Source of the DNA: Rhododendron vialii
Lineage: Eukaryota > Streptophyta > Magnoliopsida > Ericales > Ericaceae
Length of the DNA: 64,000 bases
Direction of reading: 5' to 3'
Assembly: GCF_030253575.1 (NCBI RefSeq)
Contig: NC_080559.1
Coordinates: 4,548,501 to 4,612,500 of the forward strand
The translations under genes were made by a program, and so were the position numbers. A model generated the notes under the pieces. It was not told where the DNA came from, searched no databases, and was given only the letters and a program-made list of their open reading frames with translations. Of this stretch, positions 16,337 through 64,000 are shown piece after piece. Within the stretch, counting starts at the first letter, position 1; the number at the start of each line of letters is the position of its first letter.

Positions 16337-16415
16337 ATAATTTTTTGCTTTTGACTAGCCGCATTTTTTTTCTTGTTTGCTCTACAATAATGCCATAATA
16401 ACTACACAAATTTTA

Positions 16416-18929: not shown

Positions 18930-19185
18930 AACCTGTCTCCACTTTTACAACCGGCTATAAGAAAGAAACAACTAGCAATGAATAGATCTGGCCATGCCTT
19001 CAGTACATTCCCTATGAATGAAACTAAGAAAAGAGACTTTTAGCATCCAAAAAGCCTTTCTCTCAAAGGAAATTAATATAGGATCATTCAAAAAAATAAG
19101 AGAGAATTGAACAACAAAGTTTGGACCATAACGGTGCGATGATGCACCGATAGATATAGCTGACACATTCCGAGGATATGATCAC

Positions 19186-32646: not shown

Positions 32647-32669
<23 letters not shown>

Positions 32670-33065
32670 TATAGTATATATATATATATATATAGTCCCC
32701 TTCTCTTAGGACCACTTTATTTTAATAAAATAAGGACCTCCCTTTCCCGATCAAATTTTGATGATCCGAGCCGCTCAATGTATTCAGAACGTGATTTTAA
32801 GGGTACCCGCGAGAAATCAGCAAAAAAAAACCGGGAAGGGCTTCATCCGAGCAGTTTTTGATATGTTTTTATCAAACGGTTCAAATAAAAACTGCTCAAA
32901 TCAAGCCCTTTCCGGTCATTTTTTTTTCCGATTTCTCGCTAGTACCCTTAAAATCATGTTCTGAACAAATTGAGCGGCTCGGATCATCAAAATTCAATCG
33001 GAAAATGGGAGAAATGGGGAGGTCCTTATTTTAACTAAAATAAGGACCTCCTTATTTGAAAATAA

Positions 33066-33126
<61 letters not shown>
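32647..33126. mobile_element. Foldback MITE embedded in a (TA)n microsatellite
   Basis: (TA)n tracts at 32647-32693 and 33069-33126 flank an inverted-repeat element of about 370 bp. Arms include ATAAGGACCTCC, GATGATCCGAGCCGCTCAAT, TTTTAAGGGTACC and AAGGGCTT, mirrored on the right (GAGGTCCTTATTTTA, GAGCGGCTCGGATCATCA). The arrangement matches elements that insert into TA microsatellites, such as rice Micron, though homology to Micron is not claimed. Confidence 0.75.
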
Positions 33127-42055: not shown

Positions 42056-42429
42056 AGTTTCTGTTACTTAATTCTCTTTTTCTTTTCTTTTTTTTCCTTT
42101 AGCAAATCCAAACAAAGGGCAAGGAAAAAAAAAAAAGAATAATTCAAGTTAAAATACTCCACAACTTGAAATATTAGACAACATATCCGAATCGTGAAAC
42201 ACAAGGCTGCAAGCAGCCAAGCATTATTAGACACACAGAAAGCAAAATGCGTCTGCAACCACATGCTTGTTTTCTAAATCATCACAATCCAAAACAAGAT
42301 CACCAGACTCTTCCCATAGCTAATTTGAGGTAAACTACACTATCTGAACAACCGGGCAACTCGACAGAAACTGCAAAGATTTCTACTTCAAGCGCTCACT
42401 GGCCAGAAAATAGTGACATCGTCCATGGC

Positions 42430-42684
42430 ATCACAAACCTATTTATTATGTCCCCATCTAGCAGATACCTTTTACCAGTCAAACTATTGATAGCTAGTAG
42501 AACTTCAGTAGTCTTCATACTTCAATCCGTCCAATTTCAAATACCACCATTAGACATCTTGATTCGTGTTATAGACGTCCCAACCATCCAACCAGACAAG
42601 AATCGTACCCTCATCAATCCGCATTTTCCAATCCCTACTGATTTCATTATCTCCACCCATGCGGTCTAGGAAGCTCAGCACAAG
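42430..42684 (-). other. SMG7-A last 3' UTR exon (degraded ORF)
   Basis: Behind an acceptor (CGCAG before 42684) the segment aligns with 52683-52904. It begins LVLSFLDRMGGDNEISRDWK and stops early at NTNQDV. The equivalent reading frame in unit B stays open to LLDGNKN. Interpreted as the terminal untranslated exon of SMG7. An alternative is a remnant of an unidentified neighbouring gene. Its 3' limit is not determined. Confidence 0.5.
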
Positions 42685-43899
42685 CTGCGTAAATAAGAAA
42701 GGAAAACAATGCCAATAAGTCAAACATGGAAAACGAAGAATTGTACAAGCAAGAGAGCATTTATAGACTATAGTGCAAGTGAAAACACCAGAACAAGATT
42801 CAAAAAGAAAACTCAAGATAATAATCCCCAACTAACCAGGCAAGCACACAGGACAGAAATATGTATATAATTCTGATTTATGTTCAGTTGCTATTCGTAT
42901 GATATCATAAATAGAAACAACCAAAAAGCAAATATTATTCATTTGTGTTTCTCACCTTTTACTTTTGTTAGGTGAATTATCGTTATGTTGTAATTTTTAC
43001 CGCATATTATGTTATGATTCCTGAGGCCTCGAAATAAGATCGTAGTATTACAAAATGACCGCCGTTGTGTCCACACATGCATGTCCTAGATGTGTCCCCG
43101 GTGTATCCCCAGCTTTGAATAAGTAAAATTAACTTGTGTGTTCCATATGTGTCTCCACAAGTACCCAGCGCGTCTGCGTCCACGAAGCATCCAACAAGCC
43201 TCTTAGACGTGTTGGTGATTGGTTACAGTTTTCAGATAAGCATTTTTTAAAACTTACTGTGTAAGACTTCTTTTTTGGGAAAAGAATCACTTTGAGAAAG
43301 CATTAAAAGATCTTTTAACAAAAAATACATGCGATAAGATACTAGATATGACTATTTGTATTTTCAAAATAATTTTTCCAAAAGTATTCTGCAAAACAGA
43401 TTCTGAAAGCTGCAACCTGCGAGACAGGCTCTGGATTTGGTTAAAAAAATTCTTCCAGCAGGGCCAATGCCCATAAAACAACCTCGAATTTCAAGTGCAA
43501 CATAATTACATAAATAACAAGGTTCAAGCTTGAGTTAGGAATTTGGCAGACCATTCTGCAGTTTCGGTCACCACAGAAGTGGAAGGACTGAGAAAAGAAA
43601 AGAACCAAAGATGCCTACAGTCAACCGCAATATTATGAGACTTGTCCTGGTAATTATTTTACCTGGGAAATAGTTGAACGTTGAGCATAAATGATAAAGC
43701 TAACAAGAACTGACTATTGTTAGCAATGTTATTAGGTTATTTACAGGTCCTTCGGCTGAGAAATGATAACAACTGGAGAGAAAAGAGAATCCTATCCAAA
43801 TACTAAGATGAGAAATACAGGTTCTCTCACCCCAAAATGGTGAGGTTCGTTGAGAAAATCCAATCCTTTCTTTTTCACCCTTTCTCACCATCCAAACTG

Positions 43900-43901
<2 letters not shown>

Positions 43902-43983
<82 letters not shown>
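43902..43983. repeat. Compound (GT)n(GA)n microsatellite
   Basis: GT repeats followed by about 24 GA repeats immediately beside the donor of the second 3' UTR exon of SMG7-A. Unit B has a GA repeat in the equivalent place. Confidence 0.95.
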
Positions 43984-43985
<2 letters not shown>

Positions 43986-43990
<5 letters not shown>

Positions 43991-44107
43991 CATTAGCAGG
44001 TGCCTGCAAAACTCTTCTCCAACAGAAACTAACATTGGCACACTGCAAAGGTGAACGAACTGGCAGCACCAGGTCACTGGACATCCAGCAAGTAAATTGC
44101 ACGCAAC
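43986..44107 (-). other. SMG7-A second 3' UTR exon
   Basis: Conserved in unit B (55021-55148), with CAG acceptor and GT donor both kept. The upstream partner is a donor (ATG before GTAAGA, exon edge 44403) only 18 nt after the SMG7-A stop codon. An exon junction lies more than 50 nt beyond the stop. Confidence 0.6.
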
Positions 44108-44420
44108 CTGAATGGCAAAGAAATAATCATTGCTGGATTTGGAGGAAATACTGATGTTGTATTTGGATCAAGGATTGGGGTAAAGAAAAGAAACGGAAAA
44201 GTTCAAGCATCTAACAACTCACGAATGTAAGTTTCTAAAACTTTTCCATCTCCTTCCCCTTTCCCATAAGCAAATCCTTGATTAAAATACAGCCTCAGGA
44301 ACAAATCCAGTGCTTTGACAAGAATCACTCTATAAACCACTTCAGCTCACCAGCAAAAACCTTGTTTACAGTCATAAAAGAGCATGAAAAGGTTCGTCTT
44401 ACCATCCGTCCATACTCATC

Positions 44421-47400
44421 TCACTCAAAGAAACCATCTTCCAAAAAAGTCTGTCCTTGATACTGCTCTGGCAGGGCGAAAAATGACTGCTGATTTCCTT
44501 TCTGAAGCTGCTGCTGCTGCTTTTGATGTAGACTGAGACTTTCCAAAAACTGATAATCATTCCAGCCTTTCTGTTTTTCTGCCTGGACTTCAAATGATGG
44601 CATTTGTTTTCCAGGAAATGGAAAGCTTACCATCCCCAAAGAGCTATTTTTTTTGTTTAGATCGGCCATCCCCAAAGAGCTATTGATCTGAGTTACAGGC
44701 TGGTGGTATCCATTTCCCGCTGACTGATTTATGAAATCATTATTGATCCCGATGCCTTGGTTTGTTGATGATGTAAACTGATATCCATCTAGCCACCTAT
44801 AGTCATCCATTGGTGCATTTTCGTTCTTTGATGTTACACCAGACAAGGAGAACTCATCCACAAGTTTGGTTGGGATGGAGTTGAATCCAGGTGGGGGACC
44901 TGCATGCCTAACAGGTCTGCTCACTGGATTCTTTCTCATTACTGCAGGCATCATTGGCGAAGGCTTCGTTGACAAGCTATCCACAACTTGTCCTAATGTC
45001 ATAATAGAATCAAATTTACTAGGCAGTACAGTATCCGGATAGGTATTTGTGTCATTGAGATTGAAAGACTGCTGAGGAATCAAATGATGTTGCAATCCAA
45101 GTTTCATAGGAAACCCATTTTCCGATAAGCTCAATTTGGTGAGTTGTTCATTTGCAGAAACCTGTTCTCCAAGCCAAGTTGAAGCACTGGGCTGAAAATA
45201 CGGGGGAGTAATGTTAGCAAGAGGTGTAGGTTGCCTTGAACATGTACTGTAAGTATCCTTCAAAAGAAAACCATCAATTGGGACTGAAACAACACCGCCA
45301 ATGTGACTCTCCAAATCAACCACCCTGGAGCTATTAACACTAGATCCAAAAACCTGAGAAGAGGTAAATTTTGAAGCAACTCCATCGGGATTCTTCTCAG
45401 ACAAAACCGGTTTGAAAACAATCTCCTCGTCATCCTCTTCCCTTTCAATGCATAACCTTGGTCCAAGATTTAGTTGACTCTCTGCTTGAATTTCTTGCCC
45501 TATACCATTTTCTCTGGGAATTTCCCAAGAACCAAAAAGTGAACAATCATCCGACATTTGTGGCTCAATACCTAAAGCAAATCTCTTCGACTTGGAATCA
45601 TAATAAAGTGTCTGTTGCCCAACACGAATCACATTAGCAAGAGCCTTTCCAGCCGCTATGATCCTCTGAACACGTGCGCTCTTCTCCTTATTACCTCCGT
45701 CGCTTCCAAATGGATATTTCATCGAAAAATCAAGGATTAGTTGGGCAGGAAGAAGAGGGAGGAATCCTCTCATTTCAACGTCTTCAAACAATGCTAGCCG
45801 GTTGGCAGTTTCACCTTCATCATATCTACGCATATCGGAAAAGCATGTTTCATCTCCATCCTCATTAATAGCGGGCAATCCACTTGACAAGAGCTTGTTT
45901 AAAAACGAAACAAAGTGATTCCAAAACAATGACCTAGCACTAGCTTGTTTCTCATCCACTTCAGAGCCACCTGCAATATCTTGCCGACAAGCTAACCATT
46001 CCACAAAAACCATGATGCCAGGCAACAAATAGCTCGTTGAAGGATCATTCAACTGAACACATCTCTCGAGGATGAGGCCCATGAACTCAAAAATAGCAGT
46101 AAATACATTCTGAAGCACTAGCGAACGTTGCAAAATTTCAGCATAGGACTGATTCTCTGTTTCCCTATTCACATTGTGAACACTGAAAATGAGAATTGCT
46201 ATCAGTCTAACGATCACTAGCCTACACTCAGCAGCATCTGAACCAAAAGTGTACTCCTCATTTGCACCAGAACCAAGAAGATCCAGCAAATCACCTCTTA
46301 CAAAAGAGTAAACCTCCTCAAATGTCTCCAAGCTGGTTACAGTTGACAGAAAAGCAATATCAACCATTTGAGTCAACTTCTAGACAACCTAATACAATAT
46401 ACATTGTTTAGAAGACGTACCTTGTCCTTGAGAAAAGAATGCCATTTAGACGGACAAAACGAATGCTGAAAGCTTTAAAAGTCACTGGTACACTTGATGC
46501 TCTTTCCTTGACAAGATTAGCCTCTGCTCTACTATCTTTCTGAACACTGGTGTCACCTTTTCCTCTCCTTTTTGCAGTCATCCGCGTAGGGACTATCTTA
46601 ACAGATGCTTTGGCATTTCCAGGGAGCTGGGAATAACTCTGACGGTTCTGCAAAAGAAAAATATAACTAAAACCGTAACTGACATTGAACATTTTACGCA
46701 TACAGATTGTCAAACTAAAAAGTCCTATTGAGTGACATGAAAGACAGTTAGAGGCTTAGGAGCTTCATCAATTGCTTGCTTTTTAACTTGCTAATGCTAG
46801 ACTCTCGTATCCCTATTTAGGAATTTTCTCTCTTAATCAATCTATCTTCTTATTTTGGTTGCATCATTTGGTATCAGAGCTTCTAGGCTCAAATCCCAGC
46901 CTTTTCATCTCACCAAAAACCAACCTCACTGGAAAATACCTCATTGGAGGTCCTAGAGTCACCGGGACCCTAGAATCGTTGGAAAAATGTTGCTGGATCC
47001 ACCACTCATTTGCTACAGATCTATCCAACCAAAGAACCCAAACTCGGTTGCAACCCCTAAAATCCAAGTCTACAAAGCATTCTTATGCCAGATATTACTG
47101 AAAAGCATATAAAAGAAATATGACTCACCGTTATCATCATTCATCAGTATGGACCATATGGTACAAGTTATACACAGTAACCGCTTACCTTCTCAAATGC
47201 AATAATCAAATTATCCCTGGCTGTGGAAAAAGGGTAATCAACTGCTAGACTTCGAAAGTATCTGTAAATGGCCACCAATTCATCCCCCGAGTATAAAGCC
47301 AATATAGCAAGCTGAAGAATAAGCCAAAGATGAGTCGACTAACATATGTATATCACAATAAGACAAGTATATATTAGATGCAAAACACCTTCCCATATCA

Positions 47401-48445
47401 GGATTGAATACACTATGAAATGCAAGCAAGCATAGAAACAAGGGTTCAAAAGGAACACCTGATGATGAGGGTTACCATTTGAAGGCCAAAGTGAAGAGGC
47501 TTGCATATAGTAGCTTGACGCTGCTGCAAAATCTCGAGCCTTGGACTCTACCTCCCCATATAACCCTTTGTAACGAGCAAGATCCCCAAGATAAATCAAA
47601 CAACGGTGGCAGGATATCAAGCCTCTCTTCATTTCGGTGGATATATTTCCATCTTGAGACAGAATCTGAGTTTCTTGATCATAACCAAGAGGTAGACCGC
47701 ATTTAGCTCTAATTTTCAACATCATGTCATGATAATAGCCAGATGCCTGCGAAAGAAATGTCTTAAACTGGGAACGTATTTTTGTGATTCGATCAGGTCC
47801 AGTTCGTGTGGGACCTTTCCCATTCTGAGAGGGGGTTGATCCCGCTGATGCAAGAGCAGCGCTGAGGTGTCCTCGTAACTCATCAATTCTCCTGTAATGC
47901 AACTGCCACAAAGCATACTCTATTTCATGCTGTTCAGAGAAAGCATTGTCTTCAAGAACAATTGCTTCATAATTCTCTCGCATCTGTTGCCATGCATTGG
48001 GGTCTGAGGGAATTCTGGCATGTGCTGCTTTACGACGTCTATTCTCCAACTCAACATTCTAAGGTGTAGAGACAAACATCAAACAATTTGGTCAGGACAA
48101 ACATAAAGTAAAACGACGATCATCAATGTTTTGAAAATAAGAACATCGCAAACGGTGCAACTTGAGTTCCTCAATGCCCAATGGGAAAATAATTTTTGGT
48201 TAAACTATTATGCAACTACAAATCAAAAACATCATGTCATGTTTTCTCAGAGATGAATAGATGCCCGCCATATTTGCAAGCACATGCACAAGCGAACAAG
48301 TGTTGAACATGAGAGTGTAAATAATTATCCAATCATTTAACTGAAGATGAAGTTCAGGGATAAGGCAAAGAAATACTTTAGCATAAAGACGTTGAACACG
48401 ATCTGTTGATGAAAGATCTGAAGCTTTAGCCATTGGAGCACTCAT
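44421..48445 (-). CDS. SMG7: SMG7 nonsense-mediated decay factor, copy A
   Basis: SMG7/EST1-family protein: its 14-3-3-like domain binds phosphorylated UPF1 and commits mRNAs to decay; in Arabidopsis it is also needed for meiotic exit. Coding exons: 48377-48445, 47459-48058, 47189-47311, 46421-46647, 44421-46332. Phases agree, 976 aa. Residues 24-260 hold the EST1-type helical region (SDPNAWQQMRENYEAIVLED, CLIYLGDLARYKGLYGEVES, LAILALYSGDELVAIYRYFR). The last exon joins as ILFSRT-SLETFEEV, with the acceptor inside the longer open frame. The C-terminal half is disordered, with conserved GPPPGFNS, DDYRWLDGYQ and FALPEQYQGQ motifs seen in plant SMG7. Relative to copy B it has an extra 12-residue repeat (NSSLGMADLNKK). 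A 5' UTR intron separates the ATG exon from a first exon near 50.75 kb, and introns follow the stop. Confidence 0.93.
46735..46890 (+). mobile_element. LTR end with primer-binding site in SMG7-A intron
   Basis: TTGCATCA followed by TTTGGTATCAGAGC is the classic LTR/primer-binding-site junction complementary to initiator tRNA-Met. It lies in the intron between exons 3 and 4, within about 330 bp that unit B lacks. The left LTR boundary is uncertain, and the remainder to about 47110 may be internal sequence. No coding domain. Confidence 0.6.
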
Positions 48446-48532
48446 TACCCATCAAACACGTTTGACTTAATTCAACTCCAAAAGGTGAAACATCAACAGC
48501 AACATGCAACATTTACTCTGCAGAGCAACTGC
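48446..48532 (-). other. SMG7-A 5' UTR part joined to the ATG exon
   Basis: Upstream of the ATG a conserved leader leads to an acceptor-like GCTGCAG (edge near 48532). Its counterpart in unit B is at about 59096-59182. The long 5' UTR intron runs from here to 50752. Confidence 0.5.
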
Positions 48533-49464
48533 CTGCAGCATAAAAAATTCAATCAAAATATAAATATAAATATAAAAAAAAAACTAGATGAAGTCAGAGA
48601 AAAACAAGCACAAACATAAGGTTTATAAATGCCCGAACTCCAACGAACCCTTGCCCCCCAGTTGGCAACCCTTTTGATCAACATTAATCCACAATAAAGG
48701 GTCAACCACCATTGACCCATTGAAAATGCAACCCGTATCATTAATCCAACAGACAAACAGAACTGTCAATACACAAACCAAAGAAAACGAGTGCATTGAA
48801 GGATTTAGTGTTAGCCTTGTGATTCACAACACAGTGGAGGGGCACTTGAAAGATAGTATGTGAGCCCTTTTACTAGAAATCAATAGCTGAGATGAGATCC
48901 TAAACAGGTATGAAAAAAAAAAATTCAAAGCTGCACCCCATTTGCCTGGTCTAAGTAACTTGGTGCACGAGGCATGTGCCTCTAAAACCTTCAGAAGTAG
49001 ATACTATTGATGTCTCTTCATATGATGTGGATGGTTTAGGTACAATGGAAACACGGATCATTTGATGAAATTGAGGGTCCTACATGTAGCCTATAAAGAA
49101 TACTCATGTTAGACTACATAGTTGGGATCACAATCCCTCTTTTGTAACTTTTGTTATGAAGGACCGACAAGCCAAGAGGTCCACGTTGTTACACGGTCTT
49201 GGGTAGAACTCAATCCCAAAAGCTAGCTATTGAAGTGAGGGTGCCCTCACGATTATATACTTCATATTACTTTTGTACCCAGGCGTTGTGGGATTTCACT
49301 TCACACCCTTCCTTACGCGTAGCGTGCTCACTCGGCAGCACTTACTACGTGCAAGCCAAAGACACGCACCCTACCCATCTCTCTGGCACCTAGCTTTGAT
49401 ACCATGTTAGCAGTGATAATGCCATATTACACGCCTCTGTATGCCAAATACATCAAAAGCAGTT

Positions 49465-50370
49465 TCAAATCGCCATATCGGGAAACTTAACAGTAGCAGT
49501 GATAATGCCATATATCGGCCAGTACATAGGCAAACAACGGTGTTGAAGGTCTAACATCCCAAACACAACAGCCGATATGATACGTACCAGCCTAAAGCCT
49601 GATCAAAAGTAACCTATTCTAGAAAAGCTTTGCCCCCACCATATGAGGGAGGAGAAGATGGCAATGCAACTCCCCACCAAATCACCACGGAGTTGGATCC
49701 ACGGCCCGTATGGTTATGTACCCGTAGTCCCGTACGGTTAGTGCAGAAAACTAAATTGACTAAAATTGAAGAGGAAATCCAGAAACATGAAGAAGGGAAG
49801 GAAACCAATCTGCTATTCTGCATTCGGAATGAAAACCTCATTGACCAGATTGGTTTCCTTCCCTTTTCATATTTCTGGATTTCCTCTTCAGTTTGTCATT
49901 TTAGTTTTCTACTAATGAGCATTAAACTTTTTACCTAAATGTGGAATCCTAAGTTCTTGATTACCTGAATGTGGAATCCCAAGTTCTTAACAAGAGCTTC
50001 CTTGAAGTTGCCCTGTGCTGCAATATATGAAGAAATTACAAGAGCTTCCTTGAAGTTTCCTGTGCTACAATATATAACTAGGCTAACAACCGAATATATC
50101 AAAAAGCAAGGTTTTAAATCGCGATATCGGGAAACTTGGCCATATCGGTGGTAAGGCCATATATTGGCTAGGTAAATAACAGAGGTCCAAAATCCCAATA
50201 CACAACGGCTGATATGATACCCACCAGCCTAAACCATGATCAAAAGTAACCTATTCTAGAAAAGCTTTGCCCCCGCCGTACGAGGGAGGAGAAGTAGGCC
50301 CTGCAACTCCCCACCAAATCACCGTGGAGTTGGATCCACAACCCGTACGGTTATGTACAAGGTACCATCA
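49465..50370. repeat. Direct repeats inside the SMG7-A 5' UTR intron
   Basis: Two copies of a roughly 280-bp stretch (about 49465-49730 and 50105-50370) share CATATCGGGAAACTT, AGTAACCTATTCTAGAAAAG, and TGCAACTCCCCACCAAATCA. Between them ACAAGAGCTTCCTTGAAGTT is itself repeated (49990 and 50038). A diverged version of part of this occurs in unit B near 61255-61460. Probably mobile-element derived. Confidence 0.75.
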
Positions 50371-50752
50371 GCACCAAACTCCTGATCAAACGGAGCTTTA
50401 ATAACACAAAAAGCAACTAAAAACACAAGCGCATACACAGAGGGGTATCAAGGCAATAGAAATCAAGCACACCGGGCCAAAGAAATATTAGGTCGCACAT
50501 CAACGTACTATGTGAGAATTTTCAATTTTCACGAATCATAAACGGAAAGAAAAGTAACCCAACTATATAAACCAACCAATCAATCCATACAGCTAATAAC
50601 AACCAAAATTATTACAATCAGGCAATCCAGCAACAATCGGATCGGACCTAATTTATAATTTCACACCAACACGGAAAAAAAAATTCGCCGTAAAGTACAC
50701 ATGTAAATACGTATATCTGGGTATGTATTATGTACTACTTACCTATATTGAC

Positions 50753-50799
50753 ATCAGATCCGCAGGTAGCCCTTCAATCGGCCAAAAGAAGCAGAGGTT

Positions 50800-50832
<33 letters not shown>

Positions 50833-50840
50833 CAGAATGA
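50753..50840 (-). other. SMG7-A first non-coding exon (GA/CT-rich leader)
   Basis: A donor (CAATATAG before GTAAGT) and the leader GATCTGATGTC align with unit B at 61851 onward. In the sense direction the leader carries a (CT)n tract (about 50798-50830). The transcription start is not determined. The promoter should lie just above 50840. Confidence 0.55.
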
Positions 50841-50960
50841 AGAAGAAAAACAATATAGGGTCTTCTGTTGGTTTGTCGTGTGGTATAGGCGGCCATGATT
50901 TACCAAAGACTTATAAAAAGATGTTTGAACTTCTTATGACCGTCAAAGGGAAAAAAAGAA

Positions 50961-52284
50961 AATAGGGTTATTTCTTTGGCACCCCTGAACTATGGGTTTG
51001 GATCACTTAAGGCCCTCAACTATATAAGCGAGAATAAACAATCCCTCAAACTATGTACTATTCACACAGTTGGGACTAAACGTTTTGGCAGTATTGTCGA
51101 TTTTTATTGTTTTTCCTAAACTTTGTATTCAAAGAGTGATTTGTGGGATTTGAAATTAAAAATTGATCGAATGGGTCATGACTACTGGGATAATGCAACC
51201 TTAATTGAACAACCAATTGTGAGATATAAGGAGCTTTATAACTTCCCTTGCTAAATAGTAGTAAATAGCCCTTCTTTTTTTTTAAATACTACAAGCATGT
51301 TGTATAGATATTAATCTCATTCCAATACTCGAAAGATGGGCATTTGCTAAATTAACTCCCCATGAAGCATCCAAATTTGTTAACCGTAACCAAACACATC
51401 CTAGCTAGAGGAAAAGTGTTGGGGTTCAAACAGTCTCGTCATGTCACTGGGGTTCAAGGAGTAGCACCTAATTTACAGTAATTGGTGGTGTAATATGTAC
51501 TCTTTTTTCTATTTTCTTTTTGTATTTGTTGTTCAAAATGTGTTTCGAGTCTATCCGCAGTTATATTTGAAATACTATAAGGGCATATTCGAAATCTCCG
51601 AATCGTAATTGCAAGTATTTTTTGCTTTAAAATATATGTGATACCCTTTTATGGCCAATTTCAAGAGTTTCGAGGTTTGAGAAAACAAATAGTTATTGAC
51701 GCATGATTAGCAAGTAAGAAACATCGTCAAGGCCAGCTGTAAATCAATCTTATCGAGAGTGACTAGATACCTTCCTCTTGATTAGTATTTTTACTTTTAT
51801 GTAGTTCCTATCAAATACAATGTCATACCAATCATGATTTTATCGTTTTTTTTTTTTTTGGATTCTTGTTGGATCGGCACAATTTCTTTTTTCTTAAAAT
51901 TTCAGATACAATGTTAGAAAAGTGAATTTTCAAGAACTTAGCTTTCATTCACTATACACTAGAACATAGCGCTAGTATTTCTTCGCATATAATTGAGATC
52001 CTCTCAAACAAGATCCCTCATATAACACAAAATGAAATTGATCACGGTTCCCTTTGATATAATTCAAAAGAAATATTTTGTAAGTCCCGGAGTGTTAAGA
52101 GTCCTTGCAAAATGTCAATTTTATCGGACACGGGTATCCAGTTGAACTCACAAGTGAAATAGACATTCAGAGTTTAACTATGTATTTCACTTGTGAATAT
52201 TCAACCAAACTTTTACCGATCTCTGTCCAGCTTGGTTTTTTGCATAGACATTAAACATCAAACACTTTGAGACCTACTAAGCGA
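50961..52284. other. Spacer between the two SMG7 units
   Basis: No gene recognised. The part near 50965-51100 resembles 62140-62160 plus 62404-62500, so the duplication may extend slightly beyond the 5' UTR exon. The rest is A/T-rich without clear structure. Confidence 0.5.
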
Positions 52285-52682
52285 GCGGTTCTGTTACTTC
52301 ATTCTCTCTCTTCTTTTCTGTTCCCCTTTAGCAAAACCAAAATCCAAACAAAGCTGAAGGGACAAAAACGAATTATTCAAGCAAACATACGAGTACACAA
52401 CCTGCAACATTAGACAAAATCTCCGAATCCAAGCAACAAGAAAAACAAAATGGCTGCATGCAGCCAAACATTATTCGACACACAAAGCAAAATGCATCCG
52501 TAACCACTTGTTTTCTAAATCATCACATTCCAACATAAGATCACCAGACTCTTCCCATAACTTCTTTTGAGGCTCTCTCTTTGAAAAGCATGGCAACTCA
52601 ACAGAAACCGCAAAGATTTCTACTTCAAAGTCACACTGGCCAGAAAGTAGTGCCATCGTACGTGACATCACAAATGACAAAA

Positions 52683-52904
52683 CTAGTTCTTATTCCCATC
52701 CAACAGATACCTTTTACCGGTCAAAGTATTGATCACTAGTAGTACTTCATACTTCAATCCGTTCAATTTCAAATACCTCCAGACAACTCCATTTGCGTCC
52801 CACCCATCCAACCAGACAAGATTCATAACCTCATCAATCCGCAGTTTCCAATCCCAATTGATCTCATTATCTCCACCCATGAGGTCTAGAAAGCTTGGCA
52901 CAAG
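52683..52904 (-). other. SMG7-B last 3' UTR exon with an intact ORF
   Basis: Behind an acceptor (ACTCAG before 52904) a 73-codon frame is open: LVPSFLDLMGGDNEINWDWK through DGWDANGVVWRYLKLNG to LTGKRYLLDGNKN and a stop. Unit A has the same exon but with a disrupted frame. I do not recognise the peptide as a domain. It could be chance openness within a 3' UTR exon, or the end of a separate gene. Confidence 0.5.
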
Positions 52905-53475
52905 CTGAGTAAATATGAAAGGGGAAGAATATCAATAAGTCAAAAACTGGTAAACCAAGAATTGTACATGAGAAAGCATTAATAGACAAGAGAGCAAGTC
53001 AAAAAAACCAGAAAAAGATTCAAAAAGAGAACTCCTCAGGATAATGCTCAGCAAAGCAGCACAGACCATATATGAACACAGGACACGGCAATACTACTAA
53101 TAGAACATTGACCCAGACACAGACAAGGACACGGCAAAAATTATGTACATACGTGTGATATATGTTTAGCTGTTGTTCGCATGATATTGTATAGAGAAAA
53201 AACCAAGAGTCATACTATAAGTTGAAATTCTTACCTTTAACTATTGAAATCTTAGAATTTGAACTGGGTTTTATTAGGTTAAGTTTTTTATTTGTAATTT
53301 TATACTTCAAGCCTCAAAACAAGTCTTTAATATTACAAATAAACCTATGTCGTGTCCCCACCCGTGCCTAACTTGAGCCAAGGGTCCCTGACGTGTCCGA
53401 CATGGATATGTCGACCTATTAGGCTTGTAGGTGCATCATAGCTGCTCAGATTCGTTACAGTTTCAAACAAGGTTT

Positions 53476-53860
53476 TGAATCATGTAATGTACTGGCCGGC
53501 ACATACCGGTATTGACCACATCCGGTACAGGGTACCCTATACCTCTAATTTCGTTCCACCTCAAATACCAGCCAATACCGGTCGTACCAGTCAGTATTAG
53601 ACGGTACCAGCCAATACCAGACTACTTTTAAATTTATTGGTCTCAACTCTCATCTAGTACCGGTCAATACCGGACTACTTTTAAATTTATTTTTATTTTT
53701 AATATAATAAATGTATATAATATATTAAACTCTTTGATGTGGGAAAATAACATTAGTAGCGATAAATATGAAACGGTATCCGGTATCTCACCGGTATGTA
53801 CCGTACCATACCAATAGGAAAACCGGTACTCTAGCTATACCACTACTTAGAACCTTGGTT
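53476..53860. mobile_element. CCGGTA-rich inverted-repeat element, unit B only
   Basis: The ends AAGGTTTTGAATCATG and the reverse complement of ACTTAGAACCTTGG are similar. The interior repeats TACCGGT, ATACCGG and ACCAGCCAATACC many times. Unit A lacks it. Probably a Mutator-like MITE related to AAGGTTTTAAAT starts elsewhere in the window. TSD not resolved. Confidence 0.55.
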
Positions 53861-54112
53861 TGCAATAACCATTTTTTACACTAATTTCATAAGACTTTCC
53901 GAAAAAGAGTCACTTGTAGAACGCATTAAAAGATGTTCTTCAACTGTAAAACAAAATGCAATAGTAAAATATAAATGAGTATATGCATTTTGAATACTTC
54001 CCCGAAAGCGAAAGTAATCCACAAAACTGAGCAAACAGGGAAGCAAATGCTCTCCATTTGCTTTTTAAAAATGAGGCTTGGCAAAGTTTCTTCCCACAGG
54101 GCCAAGAGATTG

Positions 54113-54270
54113 ATTTTGTTTAGCCTCATTAAAAGAGGGTGAACATTTCCCTCACTACTATTGATTGAGATGGTGTGGATCCCATCAAAAAGTAATCTCA
54201 TCCTTAACACCATCTCAATCTATACTAGTGAGGGTAATGTTCACCCTCTTTAATGAGGGTGAACAAAATT
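54113..54270. mobile_element. Foldback MITE, 158 bp, unit B only
   Basis: Arms CATTAAAAGAGGGTGAACAT and its mirror ATGTTCACCCTCTTTAATG, with inner GATTGAGATGGTG against CACCATCTCAATC, around a short loop. Ends read ATTTTGTT and AACAAAAT. Absent from unit A. Confidence 0.75.
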
Positions 54271-54977
54271 GCTTTTTTCCCTGAAATTTTCAGTGAAACA
54301 TACAACAGGGGTTAGGTTTATTTGGCAGACCATTCTGCACTTTTGGCCACTAAACAAGCAGACGGACCAAGAATAGAAGAGGACCAAAGAAATTACAGTC
54401 AACCACACTTCTTATGAGACAACTAGACAAGAACTAGCAATTCTTTTAGCTGGCAAGTAGTTAAACCTTGTACATAAAAATACCAAGAACTGACTTTTGC
54501 TAGCGATGGTATTAGGCGTTCAACAGGTCATTTGGATGGTGAGAAATGGTAGAAATGAAGAGAGGAGAATCCTATCAAATACCAAAATAGGTGAGGAATG
54601 GTGAGAAATAGCAAGCAATGCCCAGAAAATGTGAATTTTTTTTGGTTGATATTTGTTTCTCACCAAATCTCACCATTTTGGTGAGATTAAATAGTGAAAT
54701 TCGGTGAGAAAACCCCAATCCTTTCTTTTTCACCCTTTTCTCACCAATGAGAGAGAGGGAGGGAAATAGGGAGATAAGAAAACTCCATTACTGTGATTAC
54801 ACCTTCAGATACGAAGGGTATGTTCCACTTTCCCTAAATAAGTACTTATTTTTTGAATTAAGGTGATGTGATGTGAGAGAATGACATCTCTCGTAAAGCG
54901 GGACTAAGTATTTAGTTTTTAAGAAGGGAAAGTGGAACGGGCTCAAAGTAGATAATTGAAAGTGCCACACACATACA

Positions 54978-54979
<2 letters not shown>

Positions 54980-55009
<30 letters not shown>

Positions 55010-55019
55010 GAGAGAGAGA
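54980..55019. repeat. (GA)n microsatellite
   Basis: GA repeats with one GGG interruption, immediately beside the donor of the second 3' UTR exon of SMG7-B. Equivalent to the repeat at 43902-43983. Confidence 0.95.
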
Positions 55020-55020
55020 C

Positions 55021-55148
55021 CTAGTCATTAGCAGGTGCCAGCAAAACTCTTATATCCAACAGAAACTTTATAACATTGGCCACACTGCAATGGCGAAGGA
55101 ACGGGTAGCACCAGCCACTGGACATCCATGTTGTAAATTGTTCATAAC
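55021..55148 (-). other. SMG7-B second 3' UTR exon
   Basis: Acceptor CATTCAG and donor GACTAG before GTCTCT are conserved with unit A (43986-44107). The preceding donor (exon edge 55445) is 23 nt after the SMG7-B stop codon. Confidence 0.6.
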
Positions 55149-55467
55149 CTGAATGGCAAAGCAATAATGAATGCTGGATTCTGAGGAATATACAAGGGAA
55201 ATACTGATCCTGTACGTGGAGGATTGGGGTAAGGTAAAGGAAAATTAAATGGAAAAGCAAAAGGATCTAGCAGCTTGCAACGATCAGATCCTTGAGCTTT
55301 TCCTTCTCCTTTCCCTTTTCCTAATGCAAATCCTTGATTAAATATAGCCAAGGGAACAAATCCAGATCTTTCACAGGAAAAACTTCACCAGCAAAAAAAC
55401 CCTATTTACAGTCATAAAATAGCATGTTAAAAGGTTTGACTTACCATCTCTCCCTCCCATAATCATC

Positions 55468-58400
55468 TCACACAAAGAAACCATTTTCCAAAAAAGTCTG
55501 TCCTCGATATTGCTCCGGCAGGGCAACAAACAACTTTGGATTTCCTTCCTGAAGCTGCGGCTGCTTTTGATGTAGACTCAGACTTTCCAAAAACTGATAC
55601 TCATTCCAGCCTTCCTGCTTTTCTGCCTGGACTTGGTGTGCTGGCATTTGTTTTCCAGGAAAGGGAAAGCTTACCATCCCCAAAGAGCTATTAATCTTAC
55701 TTACAGGATGGTGGTATCCATTTGCTGCAGAATGATTCATGGAATCATAATTGATCCCAATGCCTTGGTTTGTTGATGATGTAAACTGATATCCATCTAG
55801 CCATCTATAATCATCCACGGGTGGATTTTCATTCTTGAATGTTGCACCAGACAAGGAGGACTCTTCCAGAAGTTTGCTAGGGAAAGAGTTGAATCCAGGT
55901 GGGGGACCTGCATGCCTAACAGGTCTGCTCACAGGATTCTTTCTCATACCGACTGGCATCATTGGTGATGGCTTCATTGACAAACTATCCACAACTTTTC
56001 CTAATGGCATAATGGAATCAAATTTACAAGGTACTACAGTTTCTGCATATTTATTTGTGGCATTGGGATTGCTAGACTGCTGAGGAATCAAATGATGTTG
56101 CAACTCACGTGTCATAGGAAATCCATTTTCTGACAAGCTCAATTGGGTGAGTTGTTCATTTGCAGAAAACTGTTCCCCAAGCCACGTTGAAGCACTTGGC
56201 TGAAAATACGGGGGAGTAATGTTAGCAAGAGATATTGGTGGCCTTGAACATGTATTGGAAGCATCCTGTAAGAGGAAACCATCATTTGGGACAGAAACAG
56301 CAGTGCCAGCATGACTTTCCATATCAACACTAGATCCCAAAACCTGAGAAGAGGGTGATTTTGAAGCAACCCCATCAGGATCCTTATCAGACAAAACCGG
56401 TTTGAAAACAATCACCTCGTCTTCTTCGTCCCTTTCAATACCCAACCGTGGTCCAAGATTCAGTTGACTCTCTGCTGAAATTTCCTGCCCTCGACCATTT
56501 TCACTGGGGATATCCCAAGAACCAGAAAGTGAATAATCATCCGACATTTGTGGCTCAGCACCAAAAGCAAATTTCTTTGATTTGTAATCAAAATAAAGTG
56601 TCTGTTGCCCAACATGAATCAAATTAGCAAGAGCTTTTCCAGCTGCTATAATTCTCTGAACACGTGCGCTCTTCCCCTTGCTGCCTCCGTCGCTTCCAAA
56701 TGGATATTTCATCGAAAATTCCAGGATTAGTTGTGCAGGAAGAAGAGGCAGGAATCCTCTCAATTCAATGTCTTCAAACAATGCAAGCCGGTTGGCTGTT
56801 TCACCTTCATCATATCTACTCATATTGAAAAAGCATGTTTCAGCTCCGTCCTCCTTAATAAAGGAGAATCCACTTGACAAGAGCTTGTTTGAAAATGAAA
56901 CAAAGTGATTCCAGAAAAACGACCTAGCACTAGCTTGTTTCTCCTCCACTTCAGAGCCAACTGCAATATCTTGCCGACAAGCTAACCATTCCACAAAAAC
57001 CATGATTCCAGGCAACAAATAGCTCGTTGAAGGATCATTCAGCTGGATGCATCTCTCTAAGATGAGACCCATGAACTCAAAAATAGCTGTAAATACATTC
57101 TGAAGCAGTAGTGAACGTTGCAAAATTTCAGAATAGGACTGGTTCTCTGTTTCCCTGTTCACATTATGAACGCTGAATAGGAGAATTGCAATCAGTCTAA
57201 CAATCACTAGCCTACACTCGGCAGCATCTGAACCAAAAGTAAACTCCTCATGTGGACCAGAAGCAAGTAGCACGAGAAAATCACCTCTTACGATAGAGTA
57301 AACCTCCTCAAATGTCTCCAAGCTGGTTAAAAGATATAGAGAAGCATTATCAATCATTTGAGTCAACTTCTAGACACAACCTAATCCATTGTTTGGAAGA
57401 CGTACCTTGTCCTTGTGAAAAGAATGCCATTTAGACGAACAAAACGAATGCAGAAAGCTTTAAAAGTCTCTGGTATACTTGATGCTCTTTCCTTGACAAG
57501 ATTAGACTCTGCGCTAGAATCTTTTTTAACACTTTTGTCTCCTTTTCCTCTCCCTTTTGCAGTCATCCTTGCAGGGACCATCTTAACAGATGCTTTGGCA
57601 TTCCCAGGCAGCTGGGAATAGCTCTGTCGGTTCTGCAAAAGCAAAATATAGCTAAACCCATAATTGACATTTCCGAACATTTTATGCATAGAGATATTCT
57701 ACACAAAACTGATGTAGTGCATTACAACAGGTAACATTAAGATTTGTCCTTTAGTGAAAAACATAGACTAACATAGAATCATACAATTGGAGATGTTCTT
57801 ACAGACAAGCTAAGCCTTTACCTTCTCAAATGCAATAATCAAATTATCCCTCGCTGTGGAGAAAGGGTTATCAACTGCTAGACTTCGAAAATATCTGTAA
57901 ATGGCCACCAATTCATCCCCCGAGTATAAAGCCAGAATAGCAAGCTGAAGAATAAGTGACAGATAAGCAGAATAATATAGACATACCGCCATAAGACATG
58001 CATATTAGATACCCATAAAAAAACAACCATATCAGTGTGAATATATAATGCAAGCAAGCATAGTGACACGGGTTCTAAAGGAACACCTGATGATGAGGGT
58101 TACCACTTGAAGGCCAAAGCGAAGAAGCTTGCATATAGTAACTTGATGCTGCTGCAAAATCTCGAGTCTTGGACTCTGCCTCCCCATATAACCCTTTGTA
58201 ACGAGCAAGATCCCCAAGATAAATCAAACAACGGTGGCAGGATATCAAGCCTCTCTTCATTTCAGCGGATATATTCCCATCTTGGGACAGAATCTGATTT
58301 TCTTGATCAAAACCAATCGGTAGACCACATTTAGCTCTAATTTTCAACATCACGTCATGATAAAACCCAGATGCTTCCGACAGGAATGTCTTGAACTGGG

Positions 58401-59095
58401 AACGTATTTTTGTGATGCGATCAGGTCCAGGTCGTGTGGGACCTTTCCCATTCTGAGAGGTGGTTGATCCGGCTGACGCAAGAGCAGAGTTGAGGTGTCC
58501 ACGTAACTCATCGATTCTCCTGTAATGCAACTGCCACAAAGCATACTCTATTTCATGCTGTTCAGAGAAAGCATTGTCTTCAAGAACAATAGCTTCATAA
58601 TTCTCTCGCATCTGTTGCCATGCATTGGGGTCTGAGGGAATTCGGGCATGTGCTGCTTTACGACGCCTATTCTCCAACTCAACATTCTACGGTAAAGAGA
58701 CAAACATCGAACAATTCGTTAGGACAAACAAATAAAGTGATGATAACAATCACCAATTTTTTGAAACAGGATCAACCTAATGGCGCAACTTAAGTTCCTC
58801 TATTCCTCTGGAAAAACCATTATGTAGTTACTGAGGACAGGTACATTAACCTACGTCCCCCAAAACAAAAGCATCATGTCATGTTTTCGCATTTTCAAGA
58901 GAGATGACTAGATTCTGCTATTTGCAGGCACATGGACAAACAATCAATCATTGAACATGATGGTGGGAATTAAATTATGCAATCGTTTAACAGAAGATGA
59001 AGTTCAGGGATAAAGCCAAGACATACTTTAGTGTAAAGACCTTGGACACATTCTCTTGCTGAAAGATCTGAAGATTTAGCCATTGGACCGCTCAT
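55468..59095 (-). CDS. SMG7: SMG7 nonsense-mediated decay factor, copy B
   Basis: Tandem paralogue of copy A with the same exon structure: 59027-59095, 58087-58686, 57822-57944, 57406-57632, 55468-57322. Phases agree, 957 aa. Exons 2, 3 and 4 have exactly the same lengths as in copy A (600, 123, 227 nt). The N-terminal peptide is more diverged (MSGPMAKSSDLSARECVQGL against MSAPMAKASDLSSTDRVQRL), while the EST1-type region is almost unchanged. The last exon is 57 nt shorter. The conserved GPPPGFNS, DDYRWLDGYQ and VALPEQYRGQ motifs are kept. Both copies therefore look functional. Gene order on the minus strand is B upstream, then A, each with its own 5' UTR exon and presumably its own promoter. 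Confidence 0.93.
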
Positions 59096-61850
59096 TGTCC
59101 ATCAAACATATTTGCCTAAAGACAACTCCAAAAGGTGAAACATCAACAACAACATGCAACATTTAATCGGCAGAGCAACTTCCTGCAGCATAATAACTTG
59201 ATCAAATAAAAATATTTTGACAAAGCCAAAGAGGCATACAAGCACAAACAAAACTATAATCCTTAAAATATATAGCTGCACTATAAATTAAAATGATCCT
59301 GTGATTTTAGAACAAATTTTTAAGGTGAACCACCATTGACCCATTGAAATGCAACCCCGTATCATTCCTCCATCAGACAAACATAACCCTAAATACAGAA
59401 ACAAAAGGAATGAGTGCAGCATGTTGTCAACAGACTGCTTTTGGAACCGGAAAATACATTATACTTGAGAGATGGGTTGCAGACTTGCAGGACATACTTG
59501 CTGAAGATTCCAAAAGTCTTATATAGAAGAAATGCACACTCACTGTTCCAATCAGTTTGCTGCCAGTGGACTTTTAGTCATGCCGTCACACATCTTACAG
59601 TCACTATAACCCTCACAACCAAGATGCCTATTGTCAGTGGACTTCTAGTCAAGCCATCACAGTCACTCACTAATACCTCACAAGCAAGATGCCTTGGACA
59701 AAATCTGTAACATTGTATCTATCTCTACAGGCTAAAGGTAGCAAAGCCACCCATAGTTTCCAATACAATAGCACTGGAGAGCTGTCTACAGCAGACTCTG
59801 CTAAAGAAACACAAAGACGATCTTCCTTATCCGCAAGTATGATTATCAAAAATGATTAACCAATGTTAAGCAAGTTAAAGCAGGAATAGAACCATAATTT
59901 GTAAACATAACTCAGCAGATAAAAGTACCAAAAAAATATTCAAAACATCAAAGGGAGAAGCACAGGACAATATGTACTTCAGAACACCTAGGTTGTTGGT
60001 GCGCAATTATAGACAGCCAATGAGTTGTCCATGGTGTTGCAGATAGTTTTGGGAGAAATACAGGCAGATTGCAGATGCAGTTCTAGTGGCAAATGATTGT
60101 GCCGATTCATGGAAGGGGAATTGGATTGACTGTGTAATGTGCAGATAGCAAGAAGGCATTGGATTATGTGACTTGGGCCTTTCCGCCCGATGTAATGGAA
60201 AGGCCAATATTTGAGGCTAAATGGAGGAAGTAGGTCTGGTCTTCAATTCCTGCTATAAGGTTGGAGAATGGTACTCCAGGCAGGTTTAAGGCAGAAGATC
60301 CCTTTTTTCCCTTCTACTCTTCATTGTAGTTTTGGCAATGCTGAGCCTTGTGATTCGCAAAGCGGATGGGAGCTTGATGGAAGGCTTTGGGGAGACTAGT
60401 GGGGTGGTTTCTCACCTTTTTCATGCAGATGAAAGTCATGAAACCAATATTGTTTACTAGGCGGATGGAAGATGCAACACAGTTTGGCTTTGTAAGATGC
60501 TTGCTCAAGTGCTATCAGGTAGTATATTTTTCCTTCTTTTTTTCAAACCAACTTTGAGGTAGTATCTGGCTTTCGAGGTGACTTGGGAAAACTAGAGATC
60601 ATCCAACTTGGAGGTAGTATCAGGCTTTCGAGGTAACTATGGAAAACTAGAGATCATCCCAGTTGTGGAGGTGCCCAACATTGACTCAGTACCTGCAGCT
60701 CTTGGTTGTAGGGTTGAAGCCCCTCGCCCGAGTTGGGCTTGTGGATTCCTAAAAGGCTAGATCAGTTTGGCATCAAGTAGTAGGAAGATTTTGATAGAGA
60801 TTTCTATGGTAAAAGCTCCAAGGGGAAGACTCACTCTTATTAAGAGTACTTCGTCTAACTTCTCTAGCTGTTCTGCCTCCATTTGTCTCCTTGCCTACAT
60901 TGCAATGATGTTTGGATAGGACTAAGCCTCTAGACGAATCTATATCCCCTGCCATATACCTTTGAGAAGGCACCAGGAATAGTTGGGATATAAGTTTGCG
61001 GCTCACTCTGGCATGGTGATGTGGAAGGCATAAGGGTTGCAAGTTCATGCTTTGAAGCTGTGTGTGGTTGAGGGGTGCCTCCCCAGTAAGGCAGTAATGA
61101 GCCACCAATTCCTAAATTGAGTCATGAGGATGATCTCAGTGTTGGCCTGGTCTACTGGAACTACCAAGTCTGATCAATTAGGTAAATTCCAATTCTTCCC
61201 GCTTAGGTATAAAAGACGAAAACTGTTGCATAAACTTATAAATTATGATAACTAGGCTTACAGCTGAATATCTCAAAGGTAAGCCTTATCCTCAAAAGCT
61301 TTGGGGTCACAACCCCCGAACCCCCACCTGAAATGGAAGGAAAGGGGAATCTGCCCCTGCACCTCCCCATCAAACCACCACAGAGTTCCATCTGCGACAC
61401 GCGTGACTGTACACCGTGTCACTGGCTCCAAAGTCCACATATAATTGAGCTTTAATAACACATAGCAACTAAAACACAAAAGCATAATTGGGTTCTCAAG
61501 GTTATCCCCTTGGCCCTAGTTTTTTTTTTTCCTTTACTAAGAATCAACTCACCTAAAAAAAAAAAAGGAGGGGAGGGCCAAAGAAGTATCGAATCACAAA
61601 TCAAATCAACGTATTTATGCGTGAATTTTCACGAATCAAAAACGGAAACAGAAGTAACCTAACCGTTTAACCAACCAATCAATCCATATAACTTTGAAAC
61701 GCCCGAAACCATTACAATCAGCAGCAAACAGATCGGGCCTAATTTATTAACGCACACAATATCAATTCCCAACCAACCCCAAAGTACACACACACAAATA
61801 CACACACACACACATATATGTTTATGTATGTATGTATCGTGTATATTTAC

Positions 61851-61925
61851 CTATTTTTGATATCGGATCCGCAGAGATCCCGTCGCTCGGCCAATAGAAC
61901 CGCCGTGAACTTGTTGGTCTCGGCG

Positions 61926-61960
<35 letters not shown>

Positions 61961-61975
61961 GGAGAGAGAGTGAGG
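61851..61975 (-). other. SMG7-B first non-coding exon (GA/CT-rich leader)
   Basis: Donor (AAAAATAG before GTAAAT), then CTGCGGATCCGATATC, aligns with unit A. The sense leader contains a (CT)n tract at about 61928-61970. Transcription start not determined. Confidence 0.55.
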
Positions 61976-62171
61976 CGTTGTTCGGTTGGTTTTTCATCGC
62001 GGGACTCAATTCATGTTTTTTTTAGTAATTAGTAATTACTACTAATATTTTTGGTATTGGGCGGCTAGACTTATCTGTATTTTGATTGAAAACATTCTTT
62101 CCCGTCAAACGAGAGAAAAAACAAATAAAAACATGTAATTGGGTTAATTTCTTAGACACCCCTAAATTATG

Positions 62172-62403
62172 GAGAAGTTTTTCAGTGCCGGTTGGTCACC
62201 GGCCACTTGGTGCCGAGTATCATCTTGGCCGTTCAAACGTATTTTGAACGGTCCAAATTTGATTGGATAGTTATTAAGTGTAAAATTACAAAAACACCCC
62301 TTTAACCCCAAACAGATTTGAGCTGTCCAAAACATGTTTGGATGGCCGAAATACGTGCTCAGCACCACGTGGCCGGTGCCCGCTCGGCACTGAAAAATTT
62401 CTC
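62172..62403. mobile_element. MITE with 9-bp TSD (Mutator-like)
   Basis: TAAATTATG flanks it at 62163-62171 and 62404-62412. The terminal inverted repeats are GAGAAGTTTTTCAGTGCCG and GAGAAATTTTTCAGTGCCG (right end reversed). The arms continue with CCGGCCAC and GGCCGGTG blocks. 232 bp, non-coding. Confidence 0.8.
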
Positions 62404-62412
62404 TAAATTATG

Positions 62413-64000
62413 AGACTGGACCAGTTAACCCCGATAGATTCACTATATAACCGACCAAAGACAATGTCTCCACTATGCAAAAGTTTCAAGGGTGAAAATT
62501 TCACTTACACAGTTACACTATCAGGTTTGCTCGATCGTATACCAACCCTTTCACGTATGGTAAATGATTATGCACCTAACACCAGTCAAATGTCTTATTT
62601 CAGGTGGTTAAAAATACCTCCTCGCCCATTTGATTATATGCACCTTTGACAATTATTGAAGATATAACTATAGTAGTAAACAATCTCAAGAACCAGAGAA
62701 AATTAATTAGGTCGCACGTTTTGTTTCTGAACCTAGGCTTATGTAGTAAAATAAAATACTGAACTTTTATATATATTTAGAACTCAGTACGTATTTTTTC
62801 ATTTGCAACTAAGCACCCATATTTTGTAGACTACTTAATTTTTAATCATATTCTCCTTGTGATATAGTAAATAAAAACTAGACTTATGATTTAATCATAT
62901 TCTCCTTGTTGTAATAACTTTTTCTCACTTGTTTCTCCCTCTGTATAACCTTACTTTGTTATGGGTTAATTTTCTCCCCTCGGATGACCTTACATTATTA
63001 CGAGTTGCCTAACATTTTCTGATTTGATATGCTTCATGTCACACATTGAAGCAATAATCTCCAAGCCTATCGATGAAAAACAGTTTAGACTTCATGTCTA
63101 TGAAATGTTGTATTTGGTGTTATGTGTGTAGCATTGTTGTTTTAATGTTATGATGATAAGTTGAGAGAGTATAGATATGTTGTAGAAACTCGCATGCGAC
63201 AGACTTGAGATTGTTCCGAAGCTTGCATCTTGAACATGGTGGGATTCTCAAAAACGGGTCGCCCGTAATCATTAGAACTTTGCATCTTCAACATATGAGG
63301 TCCATTGAAAATGTTTATTCGTCAAATCTCAAGCTCATTTCCGAATTACCATTATGATCGACAATGTTCATCTCGTAGAACTTATCGACTTTATGAACCA
63401 CTTCAAAGATCATTCTAATCGAATACTTATTGGTACATAATCGAAGATGATCAAAATGAATTTATTTTTTTACGAGTGTCTATTGTTGTGATCTAAACCG
63501 TTCATATTTTAAGACCTACAATATATTATTGCCATGCAAAAAATCAGCTTGATTGGAAGTCGATATATCAAAATTTGAATTTTGATTTATAAAATAGACA
63601 ATCTAATTTCTGTCAATAATAATAAAGATAAACTATTCATTTTAAAAAGCAAAATTCAATTTTTGATACTCCTATCGATGTTCTATCAAGTTAATTTTTT
63701 TTATGGATATATTACTATGTGGGGTTTACAAGATGAATGTTTCATATCAACAATAAACATACGGTAGGACCGAAAAAGATAGTGATGGAAAAGTGAAATT
63801 TTCTACCGCTGATAAAAAGAATTTAATCTCTTTGTCAAATTGTGAGCTGGTTACGGTTCATATTTATGATCTCAACTGTTCAAATTGCATAGATTGTTGA
63901 GAAGATAAACCTTGGGAAATATCATTTGAATTGAATTCCGATTGATATATAATCGGAGACAATGAGATCAAGTTTGCTTTTGCAAAAATAAACCTGGCTA
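62413..64000. other. Intergenic, no supported gene
   Basis: A/T-rich, with short direct motifs (TTTAATCATATTCTCCTTGT occurs twice near 62840-62915 with small changes). No ORF with recognisable homology and no clear element. Confidence 0.5.

Follow-up and report, generated by a model that had tools for sequence, protein, structure and literature searches.

A tandem pair of intact SMG7 genes in Rhododendron vialii, probably self-repressing and largely redundant

The window analysed, a 64,000-nucleotide stretch of Rhododendron vialii DNA (contig C3, positions 4548501–4612500), carries two complete genes for SMG7, a factor of nonsense-mediated mRNA decay (NMD). The two genes are intact and follow one another head to tail on the minus strand. 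These tandem copies are called A and B in the following, an SMG7L-like locus and a third SMG7 found elsewhere in the genome (532.6 Mb in 13 contigs searched) are called C and D, and positions refer to the window unless a contig is given. The layouts of the 3′ untranslated regions (3′UTRs) of A and B were derived from the alignment of A, B and D together with splice sites. The upper bounds given for both predicted first exons are the ends of the A/B similarity.

48445–44421, minus strand: coding region of SMG7 copy A, 976 amino acids (aa), rebuilt gene model with Pfam matches
48445–48377, 48058–47459, 47311–47189, 46647–46421, 46332–44421, minus strand: coding exons of copy A
50743–50831, minus strand: predicted non-coding first exon of copy A, donor AG|GTAAGT after 50743
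48426–48532, minus strand: 5′ part of the second exon of copy A, with a 28-codon upstream open reading frame (uORF, 48512–48426) overlapping the main ATG (48445)
42059–44420, minus strand: predicted 3′UTR of copy A, proximal donor 44403, middle exon end ~43986, distal acceptor 42685, last exon to ~42059
59095–55468, minus strand: coding region of SMG7 copy B, 957 aa, rebuilt gene model with Pfam matches
59095–59027, 58686–58087, 57944–57822, 57632–57406, 57322–55468, minus strand: coding exons of copy B
61851–61958, minus strand: predicted non-coding first exon of copy B, donor AG|GTAAAT after 61851
59076–59182, minus strand: 5′ part of the second exon of copy B, with a matching 28-codon uORF (59162–59076) overlapping the main ATG
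52289–55467, minus strand: predicted 3′UTR of copy B, proximal donor 55445, middle exon end ~55021, distal acceptor 52905, last exon to ~52289

The rebuilt models agree with an earlier note on this DNA, which had described two complete SMG7 genes of these lengths with the same exon architecture. Coding exons measure 69/600/123/227/1912 nt in A and 69/600/123/227/1855 nt in B, i.e. only the last exon differs, exon boundaries match, all eight coding introns (four per copy) are bounded by GT..AG, and neither model contains an internal stop or frameshift. Similarity between the copies extends in pieces over 42059–50831 (A) and 52289–61958 (B), with DNA identities of 84% and 82% in two large coding blocks. 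Weak similarity (68% over 346 columns) persists in the first exon and at the 5′ end of intron 1, the middle of which is unmatched between A and B. Farther upstream, beyond 50900 in A and 61950 in B, a sensitive search returned nothing except one match of 46 bp (~50951–50995 in A, ~62127–62172 in B). Judged by these comparisons, the duplicated unit appears to run from the first exon, with the two ends of the 5′UTR intron, through every coding exon to the last 3′UTR exon. Within its intron 4 (46648–47188), copy A holds an insertion of ~335 nt that is absent from B, a stretch of which resembles a retrotransposon primer-binding site, and near the C-terminus copy A has an in-frame insertion of 12 residues (44630–44685) that looks like NSSLGM repeated locally. 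At the gathering threshold, Rfam gave no match in the window.

Both proteins contain EST1 (PF10374; 51.6 bits in A and 53.1 bits in B, cut-off 25 bits) followed by EST1_DNA_bind (PF10373; 195.6 and 201.5 bits, cut-off 22 bits), and these were the only Pfam families matched by either protein at E-values up to 0.001, the PIN domain of animal SMG5/SMG6 not being among them. The closest solved structures by sequence, for residues 1–603, were SMG-7 (1ya0), EST1A (4um2) and EBS1 (9qdq). Basic residues of the phosphoserine pocket are reported as K77 and R185 in Arabidopsis SMG7 (PMC6232500). An arginine is present at position 185 of both A and B inside DLARYK, which aligns with DIARYR of 1ya0 SMG-7 (A) and of EST1A (B). 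The second pocket position is presumably R79 in both copies, placed by motif outside the structure alignments. In the C-terminal half, the blocks RPVRH, GPPPGF, WLDGY and FPFPGK are common to A, B and D, and none of RPVRH, GPPPGF, WLDGY and FPFPG was found in the three forward frames searched of the SMG7L-like locus. These four blocks probably correspond to motifs 6–8 of PMC6232500. Being far closer to D than to the SMG7L-like locus, and having an intron-bearing predicted 3′UTR, A and B are assigned to the SMG7 type and not to SMG7L. From the family they are probably phospho-UPF1 adaptors: as a 14-3-3-like protein, each would bind UPF1 in its phosphorylated form and bring in the mRNA decay machinery.

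The two copies agree at 812/957 amino acids overall (85%), at 408/447 in residues 24–470, at 389/487 in residues 471–976 and at 15/23 in the first exon, and the share of nonsynonymous differences is higher in residues 601–976 than in 1–470 (Fisher p = 0.029). The EST1-type part, which the earlier note called nearly invariant, is thus ~91% identical between the copies. Divergence of the first exon, claimed in the same note, did not stand out statistically: its omega of 0.77, i.e. the ratio of nonsynonymous (dN) to synonymous (dS) substitutions per site, comes from 8 nonsynonymous versus 3 synonymous differences, not a significant excess against the rest of the gene (Fisher p = 0.36), and the exon was dropped as a fast-evolving region.

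Between A and B, NG86 gave dN 0.074, dS 0.242 and omega 0.306 (bootstrap interval 0.24–0.39), and the NG86, LWL85, YN00 and maximum likelihood (ML) estimates together ranged over 0.071–0.074 for dN and 0.21–0.26 for dS. Per-exon dN/dS, suggested beforehand as a check, was 0.77 (23 codons, interval 0.19–4.0), 0.16, 0.05, 0.40 and 0.33 for exons 1 to 5. Positive selection was rejected, as windows of 100 codons peak at omega 0.46. Gene conversion in recent times was rejected too: exact matches between A and B reach 85 nt at most, and per-exon dS lies at 0.19–0.27 with overlapping intervals. A pseudogene from the start does not fit the lack of stops and omega below 0.4. Long intact frames by chance were likewise rejected: neutral simulation of A at half dS gave a mean of 12.6 stops, and 0/1000 runs were stop-free.

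Branches were compared in a star-tree codon model of 910 codons with D as outgroup. Branch dS was 0.117 for A, 0.134 for B and ~1.8 (saturated) for D, and branch omega 0.277, 0.278 and 0.173, respectively. Over the whole gene neutrality was rejected for A (p = 0.04) and for B (p = 0.012), while equal omega in A and B was not (p = 1.0); both copies are kept under purifying selection as whole genes. Against D, 26 residues are unique to A and 31 to B (p = 0.60), 16 and 19 of them, respectively, in the C-terminal half, and all three proteins differ at 73 sites. By half, omega was 0.44 (A) and 0.13 (B) in residues 1–470, and 0.24 (A) and 0.64 (B) in residues 471–976; equal omega was not rejected within either half (p = 0.28 and 0.34, with low power). 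With the SMG7L-like gene as outgroup, over 483 columns, a faster A/B lineage was rejected as well (31 vs 24 for A and 26 vs 25 for B against D, not significant).

These figures bear on two other explanations of the pair. One copy could have been silenced recently and be decaying with the damage not yet visible, and within halves neutrality indeed stands for A in residues 1–470 (p = 0.61) and for B in residues 471–976 (p = 0.60), at low power. The whole-gene rejection of neutrality speaks against decay, as do the complete lack of stops and frameshifts in both copies, set against the 12.6 stops expected if neutral since the duplication, and similar CpG observed/expected ratios (0.459 in A, 0.427 in B, 0.483 in D), and we regard decay as improbable. 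The pair could also be two haplotypes placed side by side by the assembler, which the earlier note had named as a possible refutation. This was ruled out for practical purposes, as dS of 0.24 is far above allelic divergence (heterozygosity in R. simsii is given as ~1.1–1.8%; PMC7572368), the 335-nt intron insertion is in one copy only, and both copies stand on one chromosome-scale contig.

A published whole-genome duplication (WGD) peak at Ks 0.65 is dated to 78 Mya (PMC7572368), which corresponds to a rate of 4.2e-9 substitutions per site per year and would place the A/B duplication at 29–31 My. The same source dates the Rhododendron–Vaccinium split to 56 Mya, puts the divergence between R. 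simsii and its congeners R. delavayi and R. williamsianum at 14.5 Mya, and counts tandem duplicates as 14.4% of R. simsii genes. The A/B duplication would thus fall after the first of these splits and before the second, and the split of D from A/B (dS ~1.8, saturated) would be older than the WGD.

A whole-genome search with PF10373 returned eight matches at four loci, i.e. A, B, and two on contig C13 at 26.92 Mb and 30.99 Mb; the count comes from a single search with 12 candidates scored, in which fragments could be missed.

C13:30988042–30993459: third SMG7 (D), 945 aa, intact, spliced model
C13 ~26.92 Mb: SMG7L-like locus (C) with EST1-type domains, PF10373 match

D is identical to A at 501/911 positions (55%) and to B at 496/910, and a TAA inside the raw search match is not an internal stop in the spliced model. 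The locus at 26.92 Mb is 33–35% identical to A/B across the N-terminal exon and is read as SMG7L. When 186 stop-to-stop open reading frames (ORFs) of 60 aa or more from window positions 1–42000 were compared with the 100 kb around D, none had a match there. A DNA search of the window against the same 100 kb gave, outside SMG7, only short matches at 63475–63541, 63646–63839 and 16469–16697, which we take for repeats. Beside D, two similar small cysteine-containing ORFs (L013 and L019, C13 ~30.9966 and 31.0049 Mb) form an apparent local duplication of their own.

Because an intact third SMG7 and an SMG7L-like gene are present, the pair is not the sole SMG7 lineage of the genome; it appears to split an older, second one. 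Any split between NMD and meiosis would therefore involve three genes. A division of this kind, in which one tandem copy would act in NMD and its neighbour take on the meiotic role of Arabidopsis SMG7, had been proposed in the earlier note, and two observations could be cited for it: the C-terminal half, tied to meiosis through the Arabidopsis smg7-6 allele (PMC6232500), is the more diverged one between A and B, and the branch omega estimates differ by half in opposite directions, though not significantly. The unique C-terminal changes are nevertheless balanced between the copies, the four C-terminal blocks are present in A, B and D alike, and D could carry either role. No asymmetry favouring a division of labour between the proteins was detected, and we consider it very unlikely. 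What stands of the proposal is that both copies are intact and constrained, while functional division is without support in the sequence and the pair is not the only SMG7.

Expression subfunctionalisation, with equivalent proteins used in different tissues through differing upstream DNA and 5′ introns, is a tentative alternative that we consider less likely than not. It accords with the single 46-bp match upstream of the copies, with the unmatched middle of intron 1 and with the insertion in intron 4 of A; the weak similarity noted above for the first exon and the 5′ end of intron 1 tells against it.

The untranslated regions suggest how the duplication could have been borne. The start codon of A and B falls in the predicted second exon, and in Arabidopsis SMG7 it is reported in or near exon 2 (PMC6232500). 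A 28-codon uORF overlapping the ATG as in A and B was not seen in D. At the 3′ end, Nyiko et al. showed with reporters that both the length of the Arabidopsis SMG7 3′UTR and its two introns, 6 and 7, make it an NMD trigger; as given there, the two-intron layout is present in 30/35 annotated angiosperm SMG7 transcripts, and a short intronless 3′UTR in 11/11 SMG7L transcripts (PMC3711448). SMG7 mRNA is also reported to decay more slowly in the Arabidopsis NMD mutant upf3-1 (PMC3284524). In A a good proximal donor lies 18 nt after the stop and in B 23 nt after it, and the distal acceptors of both are conserved. In D, by hand-counted distances, the proximal donor lies 25 nt and the distal donor ACAA|GTGAGT 82 nt after the stop, with the distal acceptor at local position 13025. 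For the proximal acceptor of A and B there are three candidates; with AG|GTCTCT as the end of the middle exon, every acceptor considered would put the distal junction at least 61 nt (A) and at least 68 nt (B) after the stop (hand-counted), i.e. beyond the published 50 nt. A and B thus appear largely to keep the published angiosperm SMG7 layout, with a distal donor that looks weak in both. A coding role of the conserved last 3′UTR exon was rejected, as no third-position pattern was visible by eye in the alignment (no formal test).

Taken together, A and B are, in our judgement, probably largely redundant, self-repressing NMD adaptors that arose by an old tandem duplication. The duplication would have copied one SMG7, a member of the older second lineage, from near its 5′ end to its last 3′UTR exon, and each transcript would, from its anatomy, carry its own NMD cis-elements, i.e. 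a long 3′UTR with a proximal and a distal intron. Total NMD activity would then repress both copies and buffer the extra dose. As both copies are probably repressed by their own NMD, the extra copy would therefore change the total dose little, which would make the duplication tolerable; the copies would then have persisted in a largely redundant state, with a possible divergence in expression as their upstream DNA differs. Retention may accordingly reflect redundancy or expression divergence. The earlier argument, that NMD factors are dosage-sensitive and that keeping both copies suggests subfunctionalisation or a division of roles, is weakened by the published self-repression of SMG7 through its 3′UTR (PMC3711448), the layout of which is mostly kept in A and B; feedback is probably a better explanation than dosage sensitivity for why the duplication was tolerated.

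Several observations weigh against self-repression and redundancy of the pair. At the position of the distal donor of D, A and B carry AG|GTCTCT, which starts a TC repeat (43932–43985 in A, 54979–55020 in B) and does not rank, by donor weights, among the top 14 GT sites of this stretch in A or in B. Better GTs lie deeper in the putative intron, including TG|GTGAGA at the matching positions 43889 (A) and 54745 (B). The intron-based half of A/B autoregulation may thus be weakened or otherwise arranged. Weak donors do occur elsewhere in these genes, coding intron 3 having the donor AG|GTGTTC in A and B and GTTTCT in D. The last 3′UTR exon is 81.5% identical between the copies, hardly above the synonymous sites at 79.3%, and may not be under constraint; the halves for which neutrality was not rejected, given above, belong here as well. 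In a stronger version, which seems quite unlikely to us, the autoregulation of the A/B lineage would have been rewired ahead of the tandem duplication: a microsatellite would have replaced the donor of the NMD-sensing distal intron, the uORF would be present, and the copies would partly escape feedback. If so, NMD could be set to a higher level by A and B than by the C13 copy.

It seems that three full copies of a core RNA-surveillance gene have been maintained over a long period. This agrees with the view that duplication is tolerated in self-repressing genes as feedback buffers the dose, and the genome offers a natural comparison between a strong feedback intron (D) and weak-looking ones (A and B). 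Otherwise the pair is routine gene-family turnover.

Elsewhere in the window, a second, apparently younger tandem duplication comprises, in pieces, 3936–8986 and 14777–19172 with a phosphatase-like gene (93% identity over 1022 columns and 86% over 944), which we take to be an inositol-phosphatase. The copy near 4 kb looks partial: its ORF at 4005–4421 has no Pfam match, and in self-comparison the Exo_endo_phos2 ORF at 13556–14419 had no matching DNA beside this copy. Imperfect inverted repeats of ~160–580 bp, resembling small DNA transposons, lie at 4934–5510, 15837–16326, 16443–16766, 32647–33114, 49738–49915, 54113–54269 and 62172–62403. A DUF7874 gene lies at 31735–32004; genome-wide, with 2 candidates scored, the family has no other match.

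In the openly licensed literature no paper was found on SMG7 in Rhododendron or Ericales, nor, judged by title, on tandem duplication of plant SMG7. Duplication of SMG7 as such is already known in plants, copies being reported to have arisen independently, and mostly recently, in maize, poplar, grapevine and moss (PMC6232500); compared by description, A and B share with these the independent gain of a copy, and the pair adds a further case. Relative to Arabidopsis SMG7 (AT5G19400), A and B resemble the published gene (PMC6232500, PMC3711448) in 14-3-3-like and helical EST1-type domains, in the ATG in or near exon 2, and in the predicted 3′UTR introns, which are numbered 6 and 7 there, after five before the stop, with one near the stop. 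They differ from it, going by the published description, in lying in tandem, in belonging to a lineage split from the C13 copy at dS ~1.8, in the weak-looking distal 3′UTR donor and in the 28-codon overlapping uORF. The SMG7L-like gene shares the EST1-type domains with A and B and is unlike them in its low N-terminal-exon identity and in lacking the four C-terminal blocks in the frames searched; in Arabidopsis, SMG7L is reported as not redundant with SMG7 (PMC6232500). The third SMG7 of the genome, D, is like A and B in being intact, in the positions of its coding introns, in the two-intron 3′UTR layout and in the four C-terminal blocks, and unlike them in its GTGAGT distal donor, in showing no 28-codon uORF and in sharing no protein-level neighbour within the 100 kb compared.

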